This document shows positions 11,027 through 35,507 of a stretch of DNA of 50,758 nucleotides, piece by piece. The stretch comes from Bacteroidales bacterium (GTDB lineage: Bacteria > Bacteroidota > Bacteroidia > Bacteroidales > UBA932). Position 1 is the first letter of the stretch. Each line of letters begins with the position of its first letter. A program made the translations under genes and the position numbers. The notes beneath the pieces were generated by a model, which worked only from the letters and a program-made list of their open reading frames with translations, made no database searches and was not told the origin of the DNA. Location: NCBI GenBank assembly GCA_028691975.1, contig JAQUYF010000007.1:1720-52477 (forward strand). Direction: 5' to 3'.

Positions 11027-11485
11027 TTACGGAAGAGCCAAGAACACAGCAGCAAATGTCAAAATTGCATAAAGCTCAGGGAATACTGCCAAAATCATAG
11101 TTTTTGAGAATACATCTTGACCGTTAGCCATTTCTGAAATACCGTTTGCGCAAACATTGGCCTGTCTTAAAGCTGAGAAATAACCCGTAACACCGAGTGC
11201 GATGGCAGCAGCTGCCATTGCAAGACTCTGACCAAGTGTGATCTCAAAGTTTAAACCTTTGATGGCGTTAAGCATAAAGAAGAATCCGGCAAAACCGTAA
11301 AGACCTTGAGTTGAAGGCAAAGCGCAAAGAATCATTGATTTGCCGTACATATCAGGATTTTTCTTCAAACCACCGATAGTAGTATTACCGGCGATTGTTA
11401 CTCCGATTGCACTACCTACGCAGGCTCCGGCCAGCATGATGGCCATAGCACAATAGGCAATAATTAAAGGTAAAGTAAATGTCAT
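11027..11485 (-). CDS. ntpK: V-type ATPase subunit K (membrane ring)
   Basis: A 152-residue proteolipid made of two fused two-helix hairpins. The first half carries LPSTQGLYG and the second FPELYAI with the ion-binding Glu137. Lined up with Enterococcus hirae NtpK, the Na+ ligands Leu61, Thr64, Gln65, Gln110 and Glu139 correspond to Leu56, Thr59, Gln60, Gln108 and Glu137, and Tyr68 to Tyr63. The ring is therefore probably Na+-selective. It is the last gene of the operon, followed by the terminator at 10965-11001. Only the second hairpin has the carboxylate, as in NtpK. Confidence 0.95.
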   Translation of the reverse strand: MTFTLPLIIAYCAMAIMLAGACVGSAIGVTIAGNTTIGGLKKNPDMYGKSMILCALPSTQGLYGFAGFFFMLNAIKGLNFEITLGQSLAMAAAAIALGVTGYFSALRQANVCANGISEMANGQDVFSKTMILAVFPELYAILTFAAVFLALP

Positions 11486-11509
11486 AATTATTAAATTTTA
11501 AATGTTTAT

Positions 11510-13306
11510 TTATTTCTTAATTTTTTTGAGTGGTTTGTATTCTTTGCCGCCACCAACAAATCCGGCATTTTTATAAAATTCTACAAATGTCAAACGCATC
11601 GGGTGAACAAAAGCTCCCAACGCTGACAAAAGCATCACAAACAAGTGTCCGATAATCAACAGACAGATGCAGAGTACCCAGCCTACACCCGGAATGCCTC
11701 TCATGCTCATTGACATGGAGTTGATAACCATACCGAGGCAGCCTCCTGCTGCTCCAAGTCCGAATAGACGGATGTAAGAGAGCACATCTCCAAATAGGCC
11801 TGTAATGTCGTACAGAGAGGTTATCCCGCCGAATATACGTTTGAATATATTGCCTTTCGTCTTGGAAAATCCAATGATGCAGAGCAGTCCTGCACCTGCC
11901 ATTACATAGCCTACCATTGAAGGAATATACTCTTTACCTGTTTGTGACCCGGCATAAACTGCTGAAATCCAGACAAGTATCAAACACCATCCTATGTCGG
12001 CCAAGCCGTAGATCAGACCTTGACGTTTTATCTTGAAGAAAGCAGTAATCAGCCTTGCTACAATGATTTGGAAGACTCCGAACAGGATGGCGAACCAGAA
12101 CATCTTTATATCAGAGAAGAAGAGGTTTACGATATTGTCCGGCATTGGAATGATATTGTAAATCTTCGCTCCGAAGAAAGTTCCGCTTAGAAGCGGCATA
12201 ATCACAGTACCGATGCCGAGGAATACGACAAGTTTACCTATGTCTTTCATCTTAGGCATCTTCCACATTACGGCGAGACCTGCAATTATCAGTATCAGAC
12301 CGTAGCCCATATCTCCGAGACAGAGTCCGAAGAAGAGCATATAGAACGGTGCGAAGTATGGTGTCAGGTCAAGCTCGTTGTAGGTCGGCAGTACGTACAA
12401 ATTGCCGATAGGCTCAAACAGTCTCGCATACCAATTGTTCTTCAACTTGATAGGAGGGTTGTCTTCTACCTTGGCTGCAGCCGTCAGATAGACAACGTCG
12501 CTCCGGTCCAGGAAATCCTGAACTTCTTTATCCTGATCGGTAGGAGCAAATCCTTCAAGGAGGGACAAAGTATCTTCCGCTTCGGATGTAGAACTCTTCA
12601 GTGCAAAGTACTTGTCCAAATCTTCGGAATAAGTATTTGCAAGAGACTCCATGTCAGGGATATACTCTTTCATGCCAATTATCTGTGCGGTAATTGAGTC
12701 GATCTCTCCGCTCGTGATCTCGATTGTCTTGAGGATCTCGGTAGCGGGCTGCTCCGGAAAGACGGTTTCATTTACAGGAAATGAATACGGCTCATCAGCA
12801 GGGGATACTATTACGAAGTAGAGGTGATCATTAGCGGCACTTAGCTGTTGAATGGGATATTGATCTTCCCACTCGGCTTTGTATCTCTTTTCCGATACCT
12901 TGTAGAAGTGCGTAGCAAATCCCATATTATGGAGACGATCTACATCTTCAGGTTTAAATTCTCCCCATGGAACAGCATCCTGGTGCTCTTTTTTTAGAGT
13001 GGCCAACTTGGCTTTCGCATTTTCGAGATCGTTGAAAAGATTGTTGGTGACGTCACGCTTTTGTTCATCTCCCACAACATTCATATTGACTCCTTCGATC
13101 TCAGGATTGGCCTCTATAAAATTTTTGAGCTTTTTAACTGTATCTTTAGCCTCTTTGACTTCATAGAGTGACAGCTTGGATGTCTCGTCAAATGCTCTAT
13201 TTGAACGGGTAATATCCATAACTCCAAGCTCTTGCAGCTTTTCGAGGAAATCCATCAATTCAGGTTGAAAAGCGATGATGGAATATTTGGTCATTCTTTT
13301 AATCAT
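11510..13306 (-). CDS. ntpI: V-type ATPase subunit I (a-type stator)
   Basis: A 598-residue subunit I. The first half (about 1-310) is a soluble, helix-rich cytoplasmic arm; the second half has about 7-8 membrane helices, with the conserved LFFGLCLGDMGYGL near 328-341 and YIRLFGLGAAGGCLG near the pore. It forms the half-channels next to the K ring and the outer stalk anchor. It overlaps the D gene by 8 bases and precedes K by 24 bases. It is close in length to bacterial NtpI (about 650) with a somewhat shorter arm. Confidence 0.95.
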   Translation of the reverse strand: MIKRMTKYSIIAFQPELMDFLEKLQELGVMDITRSNRAFDETSKLSLYEVKEAKDTVKKLKNFIEANPEIEGVNMNVVGDEQKRDVTNNLFNDLENAKAKLATLKKEHQDAVPWGEFKPEDVDRLHNMGFATHFYKVSEKRYKAEWEDQYPIQQLSAANDHLYFVIVSPADEPYSFPVNETVFPEQPATEILKTIEITSGEIDSITAQIIGMKEYIPDMESLANTYSEDLDKYFALKSSTSEAEDTLSLLEGFAPTDQDKEVQDFLDRSDVVYLTAAAKVEDNPPIKLKNNWYARLFEPIGNLYVLPTYNELDLTPYFAPFYMLFFGLCLGDMGYGLILIIAGLAVMWKMPKMKDIGKLVVFLGIGTVIMPLLSGTFFGAKIYNIIPMPDNIVNLFFSDIKMFWFAILFGVFQIIVARLITAFFKIKRQGLIYGLADIGWCLILVWISAVYAGSQTGKEYIPSMVGYVMAGAGLLCIIGFSKTKGNIFKRIFGGITSLYDITGLFGDVLSYIRLFGLGAAGGCLGMVINSMSMSMRGIPGVGWVLCICLLIIGHLFVMLLSALGAFVHPMRLTFVEFYKNAGFVGGGKEYKPLKKIKK

Positions 13307-13913
13307 TTCGCATTTCCTCCTCTTCTTCTAATTGATGTCTTGTCTTGACGATCTTCTGTGAAGCTTTAGACAGATTTTCTTCATCTTCCATAAATCGTTT
13401 GATCTTTCGGATAGCTTCCTGGTAACCGGGGATTTGAACCTTCTCATACAAATTTACCTTTTGAGTGGTCTTTTTACGCTGAAAATCAAGTAGATGACTC
13501 TTTGCAGTATAGACCTCGGATTCAATCCCAAGTTGCGCAAGTTGCTTGAGTATTTTTACTCCGTCTGAGTACCAAAGAGGTTTTGAGTATTTGTCAAACG
13601 GCTTGACTTCATACAACACCTCTTTCAGTTCGGGAGTACGGACTCCGGCAACTTTCACGGTCTCAAGCTCTACGTCCTTGACGGAAATAAGACCCGGCTC
13701 AAATTCATTCCAAAGAGCCGCGAGATATGCATATTGCTTGAGAGTGCTATCCAATTGTTCCAAAAGCTCTTCCGAACGTTGCTTAGCCTTTTTTACCTCA
13801 AGACGCAGAGCGGACTCTTTGTTTTTGAGCGTAGGCAAAGCCCTTGTACGAATCTTAAGTTGCTTCCCAAGTTCGTTCAGAGAGGTTTTATTAAACTGGA
13901 ATTTAATTGCCAT
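13299..13913 (-). CDS. ntpD: V-type ATPase subunit D (central rotor)
   Basis: A 204-residue subunit D made mostly of long charged helices, as expected for the central shaft that turns inside the A3B3 head. The N-terminus FNKTSLNELGKQLKIRTRAL and the C-terminal coiled coil (about 160-204, ending in a run of Glu) fit the family. It begins 2 bases after subunit B and overlaps subunit I by 8 bases. No separate subunit F gene is present in the operon. Confidence 0.92.
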   Translation of the reverse strand: MAIKFQFNKTSLNELGKQLKIRTRALPTLKNKESALRLEVKKAKQRSEELLEQLDSTLKQYAYLAALWNEFEPGLISVKDVELETVKVAGVRTPELKEVLYEVKPFDKYSKPLWYSDGVKILKQLAQLGIESEVYTAKSHLLDFQRKKTTQKVNLYEKVQIPGYQEAIRKIKRFMEDEENLSKASQKIVKTRHQLEEEEEMRND

Positions 13914-13915
13914 AA

Positions 13916-15241
13916 TTATTTATTATCTTTCCAATATTTTTCAATAAGTGCTTCCTTAATACCTGTCTCCGGCTTCGTGAAATATTTGCCGAAAAGCTCC
14001 CAAGCCGTATCAAGCATCTCGTTGATGGAGATGTTGACATCGATTGCAAGCAATCTGGTAGAATATTCTTTAGCGTAGTCAAGGCATCTGAGGTCATAGT
14101 CGCTCAGGTCAAAGCCGTTTTCGAGTTTGGTCTTGGCATTTGACGCATCGGCGTAAAGACGGACTGCGGTATTCATAACCTGATTGTGGTCTTCGCGAGT
14201 TTGCTTGCCGATAACGAGTTGTTTCAGACGTGACAGTGAACGGAACGGGTCAATAATGACTTTGCCGGTATCTGTATCCTGACGCAGGAACAACTGACCT
14301 TCAGTGATATATCCCGTATTATCAGGGATTGCGTGTGTAATATCGCCTTCATTCAGCGTGGTGACGGCAATAATTGTGATAGATCCGCCGTCAGGAAGCT
14401 GTACTGCCTTTTCGTAAATCTTTGCAAGGTCTGAATAAAGTGAACCTGGCATAGAGTCCTTGGAAGGAATCTGGTCCATACGGTTTGATACGATCGACAA
14501 GGCATCCGCGTATAGAGTCATATCGGTCAGAAGTACAAGTACTTTCTCGTTTTTGTCAACTGCGAAATACTCTGCTGCGGTAAGAGCCATGTCAGGGATC
14601 AGCAGACGCTCTACAGGAGGCTGGTCGGTTGTGTTTACGAAGCTGATAATCTTGTTAAGAGCTCCGGCACTTTCGAAGGCCTGCTTGAAGTAGAGGTAGT
14701 CATCGTTTGAAAGACCCATACCACCGAGGATAATTTTATCTACATCGGCACGAAGGGCTACCTGTGCCATTACCTGATTGTAAGGTTGGTCAGGGTCTGC
14801 AAAGAACGGAATCTTCTGACCGGATACCAGTGTATTGTTCAGATCGATACCTGCAATACCCGTTGGAATCAACTGTGAAGGCTGCTTTCTTTTGTATGGG
14901 TTAACGGAAGGACCTCCGATGTATCTGCGCTCTCCTTCAATGGCGGGACCATTGTCGATAGGGTCTCCATAAGCGTTGAAAAAACGACCTGCAAGTTCGT
15001 CGCTGACATTCAATGCAGGAGGTTCACCGAAAAATTCAACTTCAGCATTGGTAGGGATACCTTCCGTGCCGGAAAATACCTGCAGTGTAACGGTGTCCCC
15101 CTTAATCTTTACAACCTGTGCGAGACGTCCTGCAACTGTAGCAAGCTCGTCATTGCTAACTCCTTGAGCTTTAAGCGAAGTAGTTGCTTTTGTAATAGCT
15201 TCAAGCTGAGTATATGTTCTTTGAAATGCTTTACTTGTCAT
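13916..15241 (-). CDS. ntpB: V-type ATPase subunit B (regulatory)
   Basis: A 441-residue non-catalytic head subunit. Seen are the N-terminal barrel, SGQKIPFFADPDQPYNQVMA at the site where the P-loop is degenerate, ERLLIPDMALTAAEYFAVD, and the DMTLYADALSIVSNRMDQIPSKDSMPG block. Lack of a true Walker A motif separates it from the A subunit. It overlaps the end of subunit A by 11 bases. With A it forms the hexameric head where ATP is used at the cytoplasmic side. Confidence 0.96.
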   Translation of the reverse strand: MTSKAFQRTYTQLEAITKATTSLKAQGVSNDELATVAGRLAQVVKIKGDTVTLQVFSGTEGIPTNAEVEFFGEPPALNVSDELAGRFFNAYGDPIDNGPAIEGERRYIGGPSVNPYKRKQPSQLIPTGIAGIDLNNTLVSGQKIPFFADPDQPYNQVMAQVALRADVDKIILGGMGLSNDDYLYFKQAFESAGALNKIISFVNTTDQPPVERLLIPDMALTAAEYFAVDKNEKVLVLLTDMTLYADALSIVSNRMDQIPSKDSMPGSLYSDLAKIYEKAVQLPDGGSITIIAVTTLNEGDITHAIPDNTGYITEGQLFLRQDTDTGKVIIDPFRSLSRLKQLVIGKQTREDHNQVMNTAVRLYADASNAKTKLENGFDLSDYDLRCLDYAKEYSTRLLAIDVNISINEMLDTAWELFGKYFTKPETGIKEALIEKYWKDNK

Positions 15242-16982
15242 TGCTTAAAATTTTATTTAGTTGCTCAAGGTATTTATTGAACTGTTCACTCTTAAACTCA
15301 GAGTAGTTCATCTGTTTCATGATATTAATCAGCTCTTTATACAATTTGTTGCAATCTTCAAAAGACTCAAATTGGAATTGTGCGTCGCAGACTCTCAATA
15401 CAAGAGTCAGCATATATTCCTGTCTGTCAATAGAAGTCAGAGAGTCTATCTTGTCGAAGGCATCCTGCTGGAGGATAATAAAGTCGATAAGTTCCGACTT
15501 CCAGAATTGCTCGTGATATGAAATAGGAACACCGTCATCACCAAGAATGTTGATCTGCTCGGAGACCTCTTTACCTTTGCGGACAATATTTTTTGCTCTG
15601 TTTACTTTTTCTACCCAGTCTTTATCCACACGCTCTCTCAAGTAATCGATAATCTCGTCATATTCAAGATATTTGGAGTATGAATCGATAGGGTCAACAG
15701 CAGGATATCTTTTCTTGTCGGCACGAATCTGTGCCAAGCCGTAGAAACAGCGTGCTGCTTTCTTTGTTGACTCTGTTACAGGCTCTTTCAAGTTACCGCC
15801 GGCAGGTGATACGGTACCGATTACGGTAACTGAACCGGTTTGGCCGTTTTTCAATTTAACGATGCCTGCTCTTGCATAGAAGTTGGAAATGATTGCAGAC
15901 AGGTCAACAGGGAAGGCATCTGCACCAGGCAACTCTTCCAAACGGTTAGACATCTCTCTAAGTGCCTGAGCCCATCTTGAAGTAGAGTCGGCAAGCAGTA
16001 GAGCTTTCAGACCCATGGCACGGTAATACTCGCAAATGGTCATTGCCGTGTAAACTGAAGCCTCTCGGGCTGCAACAGGCATGTTGGATGTATTACAGAT
16101 AATAGTGGTACGCTCCATCAACTTACGGCCCGTATGCGGGTCAACAAGCTCAGGAAATTCCGTAAATATCTCTACAACCTCATTTGCACGCTCTCCGCAG
16201 GCTGCCATTACAATTACTTCTGCATCGCCCTGCTTTGCAATGGCATGTTGAAGCACTGTCTTACCGCAACCGAACGGACCGGGAATAAAGCCTGTACCTC
16301 CTTCAGCGATAGGGTTGAATGTATCGATACAGCGAACGCCCGTTTCCATGATCTTGTAAGGTCGAGGCTTCTCGACAAAGCCACCGATAGCAACTTTTAC
16401 AGGCCATTTTTGAACCATAGTTACGATATGCTCTTCGCCGGCAGTATCGACGAGTACCGCCATGGTCTCATCAATTTTATATTCACCTTTGGCGGTGATT
16501 GATTTGACAGTATATTCTCCTTTAAATGAGAAAGGTACCATAATTTTGTGAGGAAGCCATCCCTCCTTGACTTCACCGAGCCATTCGGCAGCGGTGACTT
16601 TGTCTCCGACAGCTGCAACAGGAGTGAATTCCCATTTTTTGTCGTGATCAAGCGGAGAAGTGTATTCGCCTCGTTTTAGAAAGACGCCCTCCATGGTTTC
16701 AAGATTATTTTGAAGTCCGTCGTAACTGCTCGAAAGCAAACCCGGGCCCAACATAACTTCAAGCATATGTCCTTCAAACTCCACGGTATGCCCTTTTTTC
16801 AGACCACGTGTGCTTTCATATACTTGTACGAAGGCATTTTTGCCGGTAACCTTAATGACTTCCGCCATCAATTTAGTGCCGTCAAGGTCAATGTAGCATA
16901 TCTCATTTTGTGAAACATGACCTGTTACCTCGACAGTTACAAGGTTGGCAATAATACCTGTTACAACACCTGTACTTTTCAT
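15231..16982 (-). CDS. ntpA: V-type ATPase subunit A (catalytic)
   Basis: A 583-residue catalytic subunit with Walker A GPFGCGKT at residues 235-242, followed by ACGERANEV and LLADSTSRWAQALREMSNRLEELPG. The non-homologous insert (about 110-200) typical of V/A-type A subunits is present, separating it from F-type beta (about 460-480 aa). It hydrolyses ATP to drive the rotor, or makes ATP in reverse. The start is 29 bases after the DUF2764 gene. Confidence 0.97.
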   Translation of the reverse strand: MKSTGVVTGIIANLVTVEVTGHVSQNEICYIDLDGTKLMAEVIKVTGKNAFVQVYESTRGLKKGHTVEFEGHMLEVMLGPGLLSSSYDGLQNNLETMEGVFLKRGEYTSPLDHDKKWEFTPVAAVGDKVTAAEWLGEVKEGWLPHKIMVPFSFKGEYTVKSITAKGEYKIDETMAVLVDTAGEEHIVTMVQKWPVKVAIGGFVEKPRPYKIMETGVRCIDTFNPIAEGGTGFIPGPFGCGKTVLQHAIAKQGDAEVIVMAACGERANEVVEIFTEFPELVDPHTGRKLMERTTIICNTSNMPVAAREASVYTAMTICEYYRAMGLKALLLADSTSRWAQALREMSNRLEELPGADAFPVDLSAIISNFYARAGIVKLKNGQTGSVTVIGTVSPAGGNLKEPVTESTKKAARCFYGLAQIRADKKRYPAVDPIDSYSKYLEYDEIIDYLRERVDKDWVEKVNRAKNIVRKGKEVSEQINILGDDGVPISYHEQFWKSELIDFIILQQDAFDKIDSLTSIDRQEYMLTLVLRVCDAQFQFESFEDCNKLYKELINIMKQMNYSEFKSEQFNKYLEQLNKILSNDK

Positions 16983-17011
16983 ATATTGATAATAAATTAG
17001 ATTTCTTAATG

Positions 17012-17569
17012 CTATTTGTATTCGACTCCCTTAAAAGTCCCCTTAACCTCCTGTACGAGTCTGTTGAAAAGTTCTTTGCCTCTGTCTTGATCCAGGGCAT
17101 TCCACCTCTCTACAATGTGGGCTTTTGCAAGAAAAGCCAATATCACATTGATGTTAAACAACTCGTAGGTAACGATCTCATTAATCTTGTCCCAGGTCAC
17201 ATCGTCCAGCTTTTTCTCTCTTTCAAAAATGTTAGTCATAGTGAAAACAGACTTCAAACGGCTGTACTCTTCAAACTCTCCGCTGAACGGATGTTTGTCG
17301 ACGTAGGCAGCCTTAGCCGTTTTCAGATTTTTGTCATAAGCGAAATATGAACGGATAAACAGATTGCTGTGCTTGAGAGCTTCCCTGTAGAAATGAGGGG
17401 AGAGGCCTTCCTGTTGAAGTCCGAATTCAAACCAATCTATCAATCTGCGATCTTTAGCGGAGCATGATTCAACTATCTGTTGACGAATTTCCTTAAAATT
17501 ATAAGGGTGGGAATCGTGGTCAAGAAGTAAATCGGGTAGTCCGGCTATGATATAGGGATAGTTGTCCAT
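17012..17569 (-). CDS. DUF2764 protein of the V-ATPase operon
   Basis: A 185-residue soluble protein with the DUF2764 N-terminus YPYIIAGLPDLLL and a helix-rich body (FIRSYFAYDKNLKTAKAAYV near 94-113). Its ATG overlaps the E-subunit stop by one base (TAATG), so the two are translationally coupled. DUF2764 occupies this place in V-ATPase operons of Bacteroidota and some other bacteria where the subunit C gene would be expected. It may therefore be a reduced C-like subunit joining rotor shaft and ring. That role is inference from position; no fold was compared. Confidence 0.85.
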   Translation of the reverse strand: MDNYPYIIAGLPDLLLDHDSHPYNFKEIRQQIVESCSAKDRRLIDWFEFGLQQEGLSPHFYREALKHSNLFIRSYFAYDKNLKTAKAAYVDKHPFSGEFEEYSRLKSVFTMTNIFEREKKLDDVTWDKINEIVTYELFNINVILAFLAKAHIVERWNALDQDRGKELFNRLVQEVKGTFKGVEYK

Positions 17570-18183
17570 TACTCTCCGAATAATATTTTTTTGGTAGCAG
17601 GTCTTATATAAGAACCGATCATGCTTTCAAAATCGTCTCCCGTGAAACTCAGCATATAGCCACCATCTTTAGGACCGATCTTAAAACCATTCGGTACGGC
17701 TTTTGAAAATTCCACATTAACACCGGCTGTAAGTTGCTTTGCAATCTCATTTTTAACGAAACTTTCAAGATCTTTCTGCATTGAAGCAGGAAGTATCATT
17801 TCAAGAGAGACGCTGTCGGGATTGTTGGCATTAAATGCTTTTATAATAGTGGTGATTATACTTTTAATAAAGTCGGGATCAGACATTACTGTCTTGGTAG
17901 GATTGTTAATAACTTTGGTAGTGACGACTGTTTCAACTTGTTGTTTGATAGCTGAAATAGTCTGTGTGGAGGCCATTTTTAAATCATTATTGACTTTAGT
18001 TTTTAACTCGACTGCCTCTTTTTCAGCCTTTTCGACTATTTGAGCAGCTTGAGCATTTGCCTGTGAGATAATCTTTTCAGCTTCTTCTTTTGCCTTTGAT
18101 TTAAGCTCTTCAGCCTCTTGTTTTCCTTTCGATAAACCTTCGTTGTACAGCTTATCTGTTAGTTCTTGCAGCTTGTTTTGCAT
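17569..18183 (-). CDS. ntpE: V-type ATPase subunit E (peripheral stalk)
   Basis: A 204-residue protein whose first 90 residues are a long charged coiled coil (GKQEAEELKSKAKEEAEKII), followed by a compact C-terminal domain, the architecture of the stator subunit E. It is the first gene of the seven-gene operon and lies just after a well formed promoter. No subunit G/H partner is encoded nearby, so the peripheral stalk either uses E alone or a partner from elsewhere. Confidence 0.87.
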   Translation of the reverse strand: MQNKLQELTDKLYNEGLSKGKQEAEELKSKAKEEAEKIISQANAQAAQIVEKAEKEAVELKTKVNNDLKMASTQTISAIKQQVETVVTTKVINNPTKTVMSDPDFIKSIITTIIKAFNANNPDSVSLEMILPASMQKDLESFVKNEIAKQLTAGVNVEFSKAVPNGFKIGPKDGGYMLSFTGDDFESMIGSYIRPATKKILFGE

Positions 18184-32806: not shown

Positions 32807-33880
32807 ATGGGGAAGAAAATAGGCTTTAAAAAGAGATTGCAACTTGAGTTGTTCAGACGATATCAAGACACAAAGATTGTAGAACATCAGCTTTCTACAC
32901 TCTTTTGGGAGTGCACCTTAAGATGCAATGCCGCATGTCTGCACTGTGGCAGCGACTGCAAGGCCTCTCCCGAGATGAAAGATATGCCTGTTCGGGATTT
33001 TCTCACGGTGGTGGACAGTATCGCTCCGCATGTAGATTCTCACAAGACATTTATCATATTTACAGGAGGGGAATGTTTAGTGCGCAAAGATCTTGAGCAG
33101 GCCGGAATGGAACTCCATAAACGCGAATTTCCATGGGGAATTGTGACAAATGGAATAGGTCTGGACAAAAGACGGTTCGAGTCTCTCCTTAGCAGTGGCA
33201 TGCATACAGCAACAGTTAGCTTGGACGGGTTTAAAGATGAGCACAACTGGCTCCGCGGCAATCCGATCTGCTTCGATAAGGCGGTAAATGCCATTGAACT
33301 GATGGCAGCTGAAAAGGATTTTATTTTTGATGTGGTGACTTGTGTCAATCAGAAAAACTTCTCAAGACTGGAGGAGTTTAAGGAGTTCCTGATCTCTATA
33401 GGTGTAAAAGATTGGAGAATATTCACAATTTTTCCTGTAGGCAGAGCAGCGAATGTGCCTGAACTTCAACTCTCCAATGAGCAGTTTACGGATGTACTGC
33501 GCTTTATCAAGAGGACAAGAGAGGAGGGACGAATTAAACTTAATTTTGCCTGTGAAGGCTTTCTCGGAGGATATGAGATGGAAGTCAGAGATACGCTTTT
33601 TCAATGCAGTGCCGGTATTTCCATTGCCTCGGTTCTCTCTGACGGTGCCATTTCGGCCTGTCCGAGCATAAGAGCCAATTATCATCAGGGTAACATCTAT
33701 AAGGATGATTTCTGGAAAGTATGGAACGAAGGTTTTGGAGAATACAGGGACAGGTCGTGGGCAAAGCAGGGGATATGTGCTGATTGTAAAGTCTTTAAGT
33801 ATTGCAGAGGGAACGGAATGCATCTTCATGATGATAACGGACGCTTATTGGTATGTCACTACAACAGGATTACGGAGTGA
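32807..33880 (+). CDS. radical SAM/SPASM protein of the rSAM-lipoprotein type
   Basis: A 357-residue radical SAM enzyme. The 4Fe-4S/SAM site is Cys40-x3-Cys44-x2-Cys47, preceded by LFWECTLR; the SAM-binding TGGE is at 86-89. The SPASM part has Cys267-x12-Gly280-x4-Cys285, then Cys324-x2-Cys327-x5-Cys333, and Cys350, with an extra Cys249. The usual Cys four residues after Cys333 is replaced by Gly337. The N-terminus KKRLQLELFRRYQ...EHQLSTLFWEC fits the family I recall as TIGR04133, paired with small lipoproteins. It probably modifies a peptide. Two candidate lipoprotein substrates follow. No signal peptide; cytoplasmic. Confidence 0.88.
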   Translation: MGKKIGFKKRLQLELFRRYQDTKIVEHQLSTLFWECTLRCNAACLHCGSDCKASPEMKDMPVRDFLTVVDSIAPHVDSHKTFIIFTGGECLVRKDLEQAGMELHKREFPWGIVTNGIGLDKRRFESLLSSGMHTATVSLDGFKDEHNWLRGNPICFDKAVNAIELMAAEKDFIFDVVTCVNQKNFSRLEEFKEFLISIGVKDWRIFTIFPVGRAANVPELQLSNEQFTDVLRFIKRTREEGRIKLNFACEGFLGGYEMEVRDTLFQCSAGISIASVLSDGAISACPSIRANYHQGNIYKDDFWKVWNEGFGEYRDRSWAKQGICADCKVFKYCRGNGMHLHDDNGRLLVCHYNRITE

Positions 33881-33905: not shown

Positions 33906-33935
33906 TTGTTATTCAAAAAAATATTATTAACTTTG
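33906..33935 (+). promoter_or_regulatory. promoter of the first small lipoprotein
   Basis: TTG (33906-33908), 19 bases, TAACTTTG (33928-33935). Both boxes and spacing fit the Bacteroidota consensus. It lets the lipoprotein be made apart from the enzyme operon, with a leader of about 30 bases. Confidence 0.75.
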
Positions 33936-33970: not shown

Positions 33971-34183
33971 ATGAAGAAGATTATCTTATTGGTAGCTGCA
34001 GCAGGCATTTTAATGTGCTCAAGCTGTTCAAAGACTTGCAATTGCAAAGCGAAAATTAATGACGAAGTTATTAGCGAAACTACCGTTGAACTTAGTGACG
34101 GCGAGAAATGTAGCGATTATAACACATCAGTTACAATATTAGGTCAGACTGCAGCATATAAATGTACTGCTCAGCTTTTCTAA
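33971..34183 (+). CDS. small Cys-rich lipoprotein 1
   Basis: A 70-residue predicted lipoprotein. A hydrophobic signal (about 4-15) leads to the likely lipid-bearing Cys19 (CSSC). The mature part of 52 residues has exactly four other cysteines: Cys23 and Cys25 (C-x-C) and Cys47 and Cys65 (17 residues apart). Conserved with the next small gene are the patterns TCxC near the start, (N/D)(D/G)EVI, and C-x2-Y-x-T-x-VT-x-LG-x-T. It has its own promoter and a very strong terminator. Candidate substrate or partner of the radical SAM enzyme and the thioredoxin-like membrane protein. Function unknown. Confidence 0.85.
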   Translation: MKKIILLVAAAGILMCSSCSKTCNCKAKINDEVISETTVELSDGEKCSDYNTSVTILGQTAAYKCTAQLF

Positions 34184-34200
34184 ATCATTGTATTCAATAA

Positions 34201-34247
34201 AAAAATCTGGCATAAAATGCAACTGCGTTTTATGCCAGATTTTTTTT
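34201..34247 (+). terminator. very strong terminator after lipoprotein 1
   Basis: A perfect 17-bp stem (34201-34217 with 34228-34244), which can be extended to about 20 bp with a tetraloop by pairing inside TGCAACTGCG, followed by a U-tract (34240-34247). The A-rich left arm could also serve transcription from the right. Confidence 0.93.
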
Positions 34248-34331
34248 GTATTTGATAATAAAATATTAACTTTACGACGTAGTTACGCCTCAGGCCGTAT
34301 CGTATGACACACCTAAATAAATTATAGACGT

Positions 34332-34589
34332 ATGAAAAATTTACTTTTATTACTGACTGTCATTCTTGCCGGAATGTTTTTCGCAAGTTGTGATCAGACA
34401 TGTGTTTGTACCGTTGAAGTTGACGGGGAAGTTATTTACCGTCAAGAGTATGATATAGATGTTCTTGAGTCCGTCAAGGAAGAGGATATCTCTTTTTGCA
34501 AAAAATATGAGACTAATGTTACCGTCCTTGGTGAAACGTACGGTACGGAGTGTCAATTTGCGGATTTCGATTTTGGAGGCTATTTGTAG
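34332..34589 (+). CDS. small Cys-rich lipoprotein 2
   Basis: An 85-residue paralog of the preceding lipoprotein. Signal about 3-18, likely lipid Cys20 (ASC), then Cys24 and Cys26 (C-x-C), Cys56 and Cys74, again 17 residues apart. Shared motifs are QTCxC, DGEVI and YETNVTVLGETYGTEC. It differs by an acidic insertion of about 8 residues (near 43-53) and a longer aromatic/acidic tail. It is separated from lipoprotein 1 by a terminator and may be transcribed from the 34249-34331 region, where TAACTTTA is a near-consensus box. The TTG of the membrane redox gene follows 12 bases after its stop. Confidence 0.85.
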   Translation: MKNLLLLLTVILAGMFFASCDQTCVCTVEVDGEVIYRQEYDIDVLESVKEEDISFCKKYETNVTVLGETYGTECQFADFDFGGYL

Positions 34590-34601: not shown

Positions 34602-35507
34602 TTGCGACAACCTGTTAAATATATTTTTCGTATTCTTGTCGGAGTCATCTTTCTGATCTCTTCAATTGCAAAGATTGTATCAATTGACTCTTTCGAACTC
34701 TATATCTTCAGTTTTGAGATATTGGGTTTAAGTGTGTCTTTCCTCTTCGCAAGGCTTGTCATTGCTTTTGAGCTTGCCTTGGGAGTCTATCTGATCGTCA
34801 ATCTGGATGCGAAAGTGGCTTATGCCCTGACATGCCTATTCCTTGCAGGGATGTCGGTGTTTTTGATTGTCCTTATTATAATGGGCAACAACGGCAATTG
34901 CAATTGCTTTGGAGAGCTTATTGCGATGAATCCATGGCAGTCGCTGATAAAGAATGTTATAATCTTTGCTATCTTGTTGCTATCTGTTAAACTGCAATCT
35001 TTCAATATACGGTACAAGCCGCTTTGGCGGGTTATGATCATAGTTGCGGCAATTGCAACAGTCTTTATTCTCCGCCCTCCCGACAACTGGTATTATGAGA
35101 GTTACGGCAAGTCCACTACTTTCAACAGGGAGGCTTTCGATCAGAGAGTGGAAAGCAATGTTCTTCCTTCTGAAATAATGGAAGGTGACAAGGTTATCTG
35201 TTTTTACAGTCTTTCATGCGAGTTCTGCAAAATGTCCGCTCATAAGATAGGAACCATGCGTCGCCTCGGCACATTTCCGCAGTCGGAAATAGTAGCATTT
35301 ATTGGGTTGAATGATATTTCCGGAAGGAAAGAAGAGGCAACTCAAAAGGCGATAACTTTCTTTGAAGAGACCAAGTTGGATTGCGAAAAGTTTTACTTTA
35401 TCGAGCCTAAGGATTTTTTGCGCATCACGAACGGCTCCATGCCTCTGATCCTTGTCATGAAAGATGGAGAGGTAATTGCCAAATACAGTTACAGGGATAT
35501 CAGATAG
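34602..35507 (+). CDS. MauE/DoxX-like membrane protein fused to a thioredoxin-like domain
   Basis: A 301-residue protein. Residues 1-160 hold about five membrane helices of the MauE/DoxX type, with [17 protein letters not shown] and the MauE hallmark CNCFGE (Cys100, Cys102). After the last helix (about 141-157) comes a domain of about 140 residues with CEFC (Cys206, Cys209) and a cis-Pro-like GSMPLIL (Pro281), i.e. a thioredoxin fold, expected outside the membrane. This joins a membrane CxC pair to a CxxC pair, as in VKOR/DsbB-thioredoxin fusions. It follows the lipoproteins closely and is the natural candidate to set their disulfide state. Start is TTG. Its 3' end overlaps folD by 8 bases. 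Confidence 0.85.

Follow-up and report, generated by a model that had tools for sequence, protein, structure and literature searches.

The closest described counterpart of the locus analyzed here is the MauE/MauD pair of Paracoccus, which acts in the maturation of methylamine dehydrogenase (MADH). There, as here, a MauE membrane protein (PF07291) is accompanied by a thioredoxin-like partner, and a small, Cys-rich exported client (the MADH small subunit) is proposed to receive disulfides, as we propose below for a set of small lipoproteins. A speculative role of MauE in disulfide formation within the MADH beta subunit has been put forward (PMC7794033). A second parallel is found in the RiPP families delineated by decRiPPter in Streptomyces, where MauE genes adjoin candidate precursors with at least 8 Cys (PMC7794033). 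Compared by description, these families likewise place MauE beside a short Cys-rich gene; however, they are actinobacterial, their precursors carry that higher number of Cys, a MauD homolog is encoded in one of three, and they are not described as lipoproteins (PMC7794033). In the TIGR04133/TIGR04134 system, too, an enzyme gene is paired with small lipoproteins of Bacteroidales, and in one clade this system adjoins the module reported here, but TIGR04134 proteins are about 150 amino acids long and are without the five-Cys code described below. Finally, the BT_3928 family (NF045576) shares a MauE/DoxX-type domain in Bacteroidales and forms a separate paralog group, which is also represented on contig C63 of the genome studied here.

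Here, we analyzed a 50,758-nucleotide stretch of DNA from a Bacteroidales bacterium (referred to below as the window), which belongs to a 2.0-Mb genome assembly that is 87% complete. Relatives of this genome found by name were mostly uncultured Bacteroidales. Unlike in the MauE/MauD pair, the MauE and thioredoxin-like parts are fused in one polypeptide in the window, and the neighboring gene encodes a five-Cys lipoprotein rather than an MADH subunit; PF02975 (MADH small subunit) had no match in this genome, but as it had none in the controls either, this negative carries no information. No description of this Bacteroidia enzyme-lipoprotein pair was found in the literature searched, a coverage that left most subscription journals outside and in which PMC7794033 was the one relevant paper on MauE. 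The chemistry of MauE-type proteins has been speculative since the methylamine dehydrogenase work, and the locus offers a candidate pair of such an enzyme and its client. In addition, the signature of a lipid Cys, C-x-C, C, and C beside a MauE-thioredoxin gene can aid the annotation of many small lipoproteins now listed as hypothetical.

Two paralogous lipoproteins in the window

Two small open reading frames precede the fusion gene (Table 1). Their lipoboxes read SSC and ASC, and both products are predicted lipoproteins that would be processed by Lgt and signal peptidase II. Mature lipoprotein 1 reads CSKTCNC...KCSDYNTSVTILGQTAAYKC and mature lipoprotein 2 reads CDQTCVC...FCKKYETNVTVLGETYGTEC. 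An earlier, sequence-only reading of this locus had pointed out that both proteins carry a lipid Cys followed by x3-C-x-C and then C-x17-C despite differing mature lengths (52 versus 66 residues), and that they share the stretches NDEVI/DGEVI and VTILGQT/VTVLGET; all of this proved correct. Overall identity between the two is 39%, and each one retrieves the other when the whole genome is searched (E = 4.6e-6), which identifies them as paralogs rather than a chance resemblance. The nearest relative locus (L187/L097) has a single lipoprotein copy, with lipoprotein 2 missing; as far as such comparison can tell, lipoprotein 2 is a tandem paralog specific to the lineage. The signal peptide of lipoprotein 1 holds an additional Cys. 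An acidic surface-export signal was not found (0 to 2 acidic residues at positions +2 to +6), and neither protein matched a Pfam or NCBIfam family above the cutoff.

Table 1. Features at the lipoprotein locus (positions are those of the window).
Feature	Position	Strand	Remarks
TIGR04133 radical SAM/SPASM enzyme (rSAM_w_lipo)	32807..33880	+	E 4.2e-176; 585 bits, above the cutoff of 425
Promoter-like site, Bacteroidales-type, TTG-N19-TAACTTTG	33906..33935	+	5' of lipoprotein 1; pattern script
Five-Cys lipoprotein 1 (predicted)	33971..34183	+	70 aa; mature 52 aa; lipid Cys codon 34025-34027
Intrinsic terminator hairpin (predicted), between lipoprotein genes	34199..34246	+	-29.1 kcal/mol, z -9.6; terminator scan
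Five-Cys lipoprotein 2 (predicted)	34332..34589	+	85 aa; mature 66 aa; lipid Cys codon 34389-34391
MauE/DoxX-like membrane domain fused to TlpA/ResA-like thioredoxin domain	34602..35507	+	301 residues; TTG start
C-x-C of MauE domain (CNC, then FG), loop predicted periplasmic	34899..34907	+	invariant, 79 homologs
C-x-x-C active-site motif of thioredoxin-like domain (CEFC)	35217..35228	+	invariant, 79 homologs

With a promoter-like site upstream of it and a strong terminator hairpin downstream, lipoprotein 1 probably forms its own transcription unit. The promoter-like pattern has 8 matches on the + strand across the whole window and is weak evidence when taken alone. The TTG start of the enzyme gene lies 12 bp past lipoprotein 2, and these two genes are probably cotranscribed.

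A MauE-thioredoxin fusion adjoins the lipoproteins

The MauE-thioredoxin partner, which the sequence-only reading did not mention, is the most informative part of the locus. The protein is predicted to have five transmembrane helices in total, and residues 6 to 128 match the MauE family PF07291 (72.3 bits versus a gathering score of 27; E = 5.9e-20), as do its homologs. The match to NF045576, the BT_3928 family, is partial and scores 71.7 bits against a cutoff of 250, which places the window enzyme outside that family. Across 79 homologs, the only invariant Cys are C100, C102, C206, and C209, that is, those of the C-x-C and the C-x-x-C. From the distribution of charges, the N terminus and loop 4 are predicted to be cytoplasmic, with the thioredoxin domain and the loop bearing the C-x-C facing outward.

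The AlphaFold model (AF2) of the enzyme had a pLDDT of 91 and a pTM of 0.84. Its thioredoxin part (residues 176 to 301) aligned with 1lu4, a secreted mycobacterial disulfide oxidoreductase, and with ResA and CcmG (VIA Z of 9.6 to 9.7; rmsd of 2.9 to 3.5 over 110 to 113 residues). By its modeled structure, then, the C-terminal part of the enzyme is a thioredoxin domain of the TlpA/ResA/CcmG type, with the C-x-x-C present. No VKOR-like fold appeared in the structure-match lists of the enzyme, a comparison that effectively covered residues 171 to 301 rather than the MauE part. The dipeptides within the C-x-x-C varied among homologs and were mostly not oxidase-like (CEYC, CEFC, CNFC, CGYC, and others); the redox direction is therefore unreadable from the motif. 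The nearest structures to the thioredoxin part include reductases (ResA and CcmG).

Enzyme genes lead to five-Cys lipoproteins

Relatives of the lipoproteins were first collected by sequence, and most of the loci so obtained had an adjoining MauE-thioredoxin gene. In the reverse search, 80 named GTDB loci were fetched by enzyme alignments (A2 and A3) alone, with the Cys pattern kept outside the selection. One to three adjacent, same-strand five-Cys lipoproteins were present at 76 of these 80 loci (103 proteins). This count was reached by allowing Pro in the signal peptide; a strict lipobox filter yielded 65/80. The other four enzyme loci were without a recognizable lipoprotein. In the strict set (n = 88 near the enzyme), 84 lipoproteins lay upstream and 4 downstream, on the same strand throughout. 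The control flanks, which lay more than 1.5 kb away from the enzyme and totaled 333 kb, gave a single match, a third copy (paralog) within locus L240. A Cys-blind set was also drawn up from lipobox open reading frames at most 500 bp upstream of the enzyme, in which the only Cys required was that of the lipobox; the five-Cys code was carried by 90 of 91 of these. Together, the flank control and the Cys-blind set rule out a chance or low-complexity likeness of the lipoproteins. At L293, a class-level relative, four small lipoproteins surround one enzyme gene; two of them have C-C instead of C-x-C and still keep four non-lipid Cys.

The earlier reading had held that the four Cys are strictly kept while the remaining sequence is free, and the alignment of homologs agrees. 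Exactly five mature Cys were found in every one of the 103 enzyme-linked lipoproteins, at a median pairwise identity of 27%, and the five Cys columns were 100% conserved in an alignment of 105 sequences. Outside the Cys, Lys at mature position 3 reached 95% and one Gly 77%, with all remaining columns at or below 66%. When the set was widened to 138 distinct proteins, 136 had four non-lipid Cys; one had six and one had five. Variants with altered spacing (ECCY, CRKCANC, and CKKCINC, in which C-C or C-x2-C-x2-C stands for C-x-C) keep four non-lipid Cys as well.

The spacings themselves fared differently. The proposed lipid Cys-x3-C-x-C and C-x17-C hold for both window proteins but not for the family, in which the lipid Cys is separated from the C-x-C by 3, 5, or 6 residues, the C-x-C from the fourth Cys by 14 to 30, and the fourth Cys from the fifth by 10 to 24; the last of these ranges contradicts C-x17-C as a fixed family code. 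Length ranges from 40 to 89 residues. Among the proteins aligned, therefore, the number and order of Cys are constant and the spacing is not, and Cys pairing looks like the likely constraint on the lipoprotein sequence. Close relatives within one subgroup (L228, L234, L238, L239, L241, and L257) have Asn-run tails of varying length at the lipoprotein C terminus.

AlphaFold predicted a beta-beta-alpha-beta-beta arrangement for lipoprotein 1 (pLDDT of 91). The model places C5 and C7 on strand 1, C29 at the start of the helix, and C47 on strand 4. Among solved structures, there was no usable match to this model (Foldseek best E of 0.59; VIA best Z of 4.0), which does not establish a new fold.

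Distribution and co-occurrence

In the Bacteroidales sample, a true ortholog of the enzyme was present in 36 of 295 genomes at a threshold of E < 1e-54; weaker matches, near 1e-21, were those of the BT_3928 group. By visual count, an adjacent five-Cys lipoprotein was present in about 21 of these genomes, six more had an unlinked copy, and in roughly nine the lipoprotein was not recognized. Conversely, the enzyme was present in 13 of 13 lipoprotein-positive genomes from 8 families, unlinked cases included (hypergeometric p = 1.5e-13 against the background of 36/295, a naive value uncorrected for kinship). That a 50-row lipoprotein profile recovers just these 13 genomes means that sequence alone underestimates the family and that gene context is needed. 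Tandem arrays of five-Cys lipoproteins were observed at L114, L115, and L126 (genomes G332, G081, and G420, respectively), with the enzyme elsewhere in the same genomes.

The module extends to further orders of Bacteroidia. In a class-level sample (one locus of which came from the phylum sample), 22 of 30 loci had adjacent lipoproteins that bore the code and were otherwise unrecognizable in sequence. A comparison of 50 family members with Pfam and NCBIfam gave scattered chance-level matches only, none above a curated cutoff. The lipoproteins thus form a family that is uncatalogued in Pfam and NCBIfam and is found in various orders of Bacteroidia. Beside more distant MauE-thioredoxin fusions of other Bacteroidota, the lipoprotein was not found; therefore, the enzyme can have other partners.

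A natural variant was observed in G261, a genome of the same genus as the window genome. At L106 (G261:C8, 5455-6251), a one-helix thioredoxin with CPHC adjoins the lipoprotein, and a full-length MauE-thioredoxin fusion was not found in this genome; a separate MauE-type paralog sits on a different contig. In the L106 lipoprotein, the lipid Cys is replaced by Tyr, and the remaining four Cys are kept. This one case suggests that function may center on the four Cys and that anchoring by lipid may accompany the MauE part.

Proposed function of the module

That the enzyme and the lipoproteins form a module is well supported by their gene linkage, their genome-level co-occurrence, the invariant Cys, and the predicted folds. 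As to its function, we consider thiol-disulfide chemistry in the envelope somewhat probable: the MauE-thioredoxin enzyme would set two disulfides in lipoproteins that serve as its dedicated clients. The fusion enzyme would be embedded in the inner membrane and would expose both its C-x-C loop and its TlpA/ResA-like domain to the periplasm. The first Cys of each lipoprotein would be lipidated, tethering the protein to the membrane, and the C-x-C and the C...C pair would form two disulfides within a 50-residue beta-beta-alpha-beta-beta domain. The enzyme would exchange disulfides with the lipoproteins and thereby set the thiol state of their four non-lipid Cys. We infer thiol-disulfide exchange between the two partners, with oxidation preferred over reduction, and we read the lipoproteins as clients rather than carriers because each enzyme is matched with one to three divergent copies.

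The lipoprotein might instead be a lipid-anchored thiol shuttle that receives oxidizing or reducing equivalents from the enzyme and hands them on to further proteins of the envelope; exchange would then take place at its membrane-close C-x-C, which would face that of MauE. The placement of the lipoprotein C-x-C just 3 to 6 residues past the lipid Cys in every member, mirroring the MauE C-x-C, is consistent with such a role, as is the very tight co-occurrence even of unlinked genes. However, a carrier should keep a docking surface, and little beyond the Cys is strongly kept apart from the Lys and the Gly noted above, in proteins of 40 to 89 residues; the divergent copies at single loci also suit clients better. 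We therefore regard a shuttle as rather unlikely. A class-wide envelope redox relay, in which the enzyme's C-x-C loop would pass disulfides to the five-Cys lipoproteins as membrane-tethered thiol carriers, replacing Dsb/VKOR or working beside them, seems to us doubtful.

The sequence-only reading had offered two disulfides, a metal site, or a set of modified Cys as explanations of the four Cys. A C-x-C plus two further Cys could make a four-thiol site, for instance for Cu(I) or Zn, and the enzyme would then keep the Cys reduced for loading. ResA, CcmG, and TlpA, which the thioredoxin part resembles, act as reductases: TlpA keeps Sco reduced, and CcmG and ResA do likewise for apocytochrome c. 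Nevertheless, the spacing varies widely, and the replacement of C-x-C by CC or C-x2-C-x2-C with all four Cys retained is unusual for metal binding. No His, Met, Asp, or Glu is conserved to a comparable level alongside the Cys. The retention of four non-lipid Cys despite changed spacing thus argues for disulfides over a spacing-sensitive metal site, as does the predicted thiol-disulfide oxidoreductase partner, and a metal site appears quite improbable.

Radical SAM neighbor and surroundings

A genuine TIGR04133 gene lies directly upstream of the lipoproteins (Table 1), and a DUF4301 gene is also found upstream. The window lipoproteins had no match to TIGR04134 (lipo_with_rSAM) up to an E of 1 and are not members of that family. 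The real TIGR04134 of this genome (L001; C73:7256-7681) is located far from the TIGR04133 enzyme and has a further putative lipoprotein gene as its neighbor. At 13 of the 80 loci, the module is followed, at a distance of up to about 2.5 kb, by a TIGR04133 gene and TIGR04134-like lipoproteins. These 13 (L190 to L193, L199, L201, L202, L204, L206, L208, L209, L213, and L214) belong to one clade, in which two enzyme-lipoprotein systems stand side by side. L116, from another family, has a five-Cys lipoprotein but no MauE; this lipoprotein adjoins TIGR04133 and a weak match to TIGR04134. The first-fetched TIGR04133 loci of other genomes had no five-Cys lipoprotein within 1.5 kb.

That the lipoproteins are substrates of the radical SAM enzyme, their Cys being crosslinked before export, is very improbable: the gene is adjacent here, lies within 2.4 kb in the 13 loci, and stands beside the unlinked lipoprotein of L116, but it is missing from the majority of module loci, TIGR04134, its named partner, is encoded at another place in this genome and borders the radical SAM gene in the 13 loci, and TIGR04133 loci elsewhere, as fetched, were without the five-Cys lipoprotein. 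We rejected the radical SAM-lipoprotein system as an explanation, given that the lipoproteins fall outside TIGR04134 and are linked to the radical SAM gene in some clades only; the radical SAM gene is not a general partner of the module and is not needed to explain it. Elsewhere in the window, the genes at positions 11027 to 18183 on the - strand resemble a V/A-type ATPase operon, as read from their translations.
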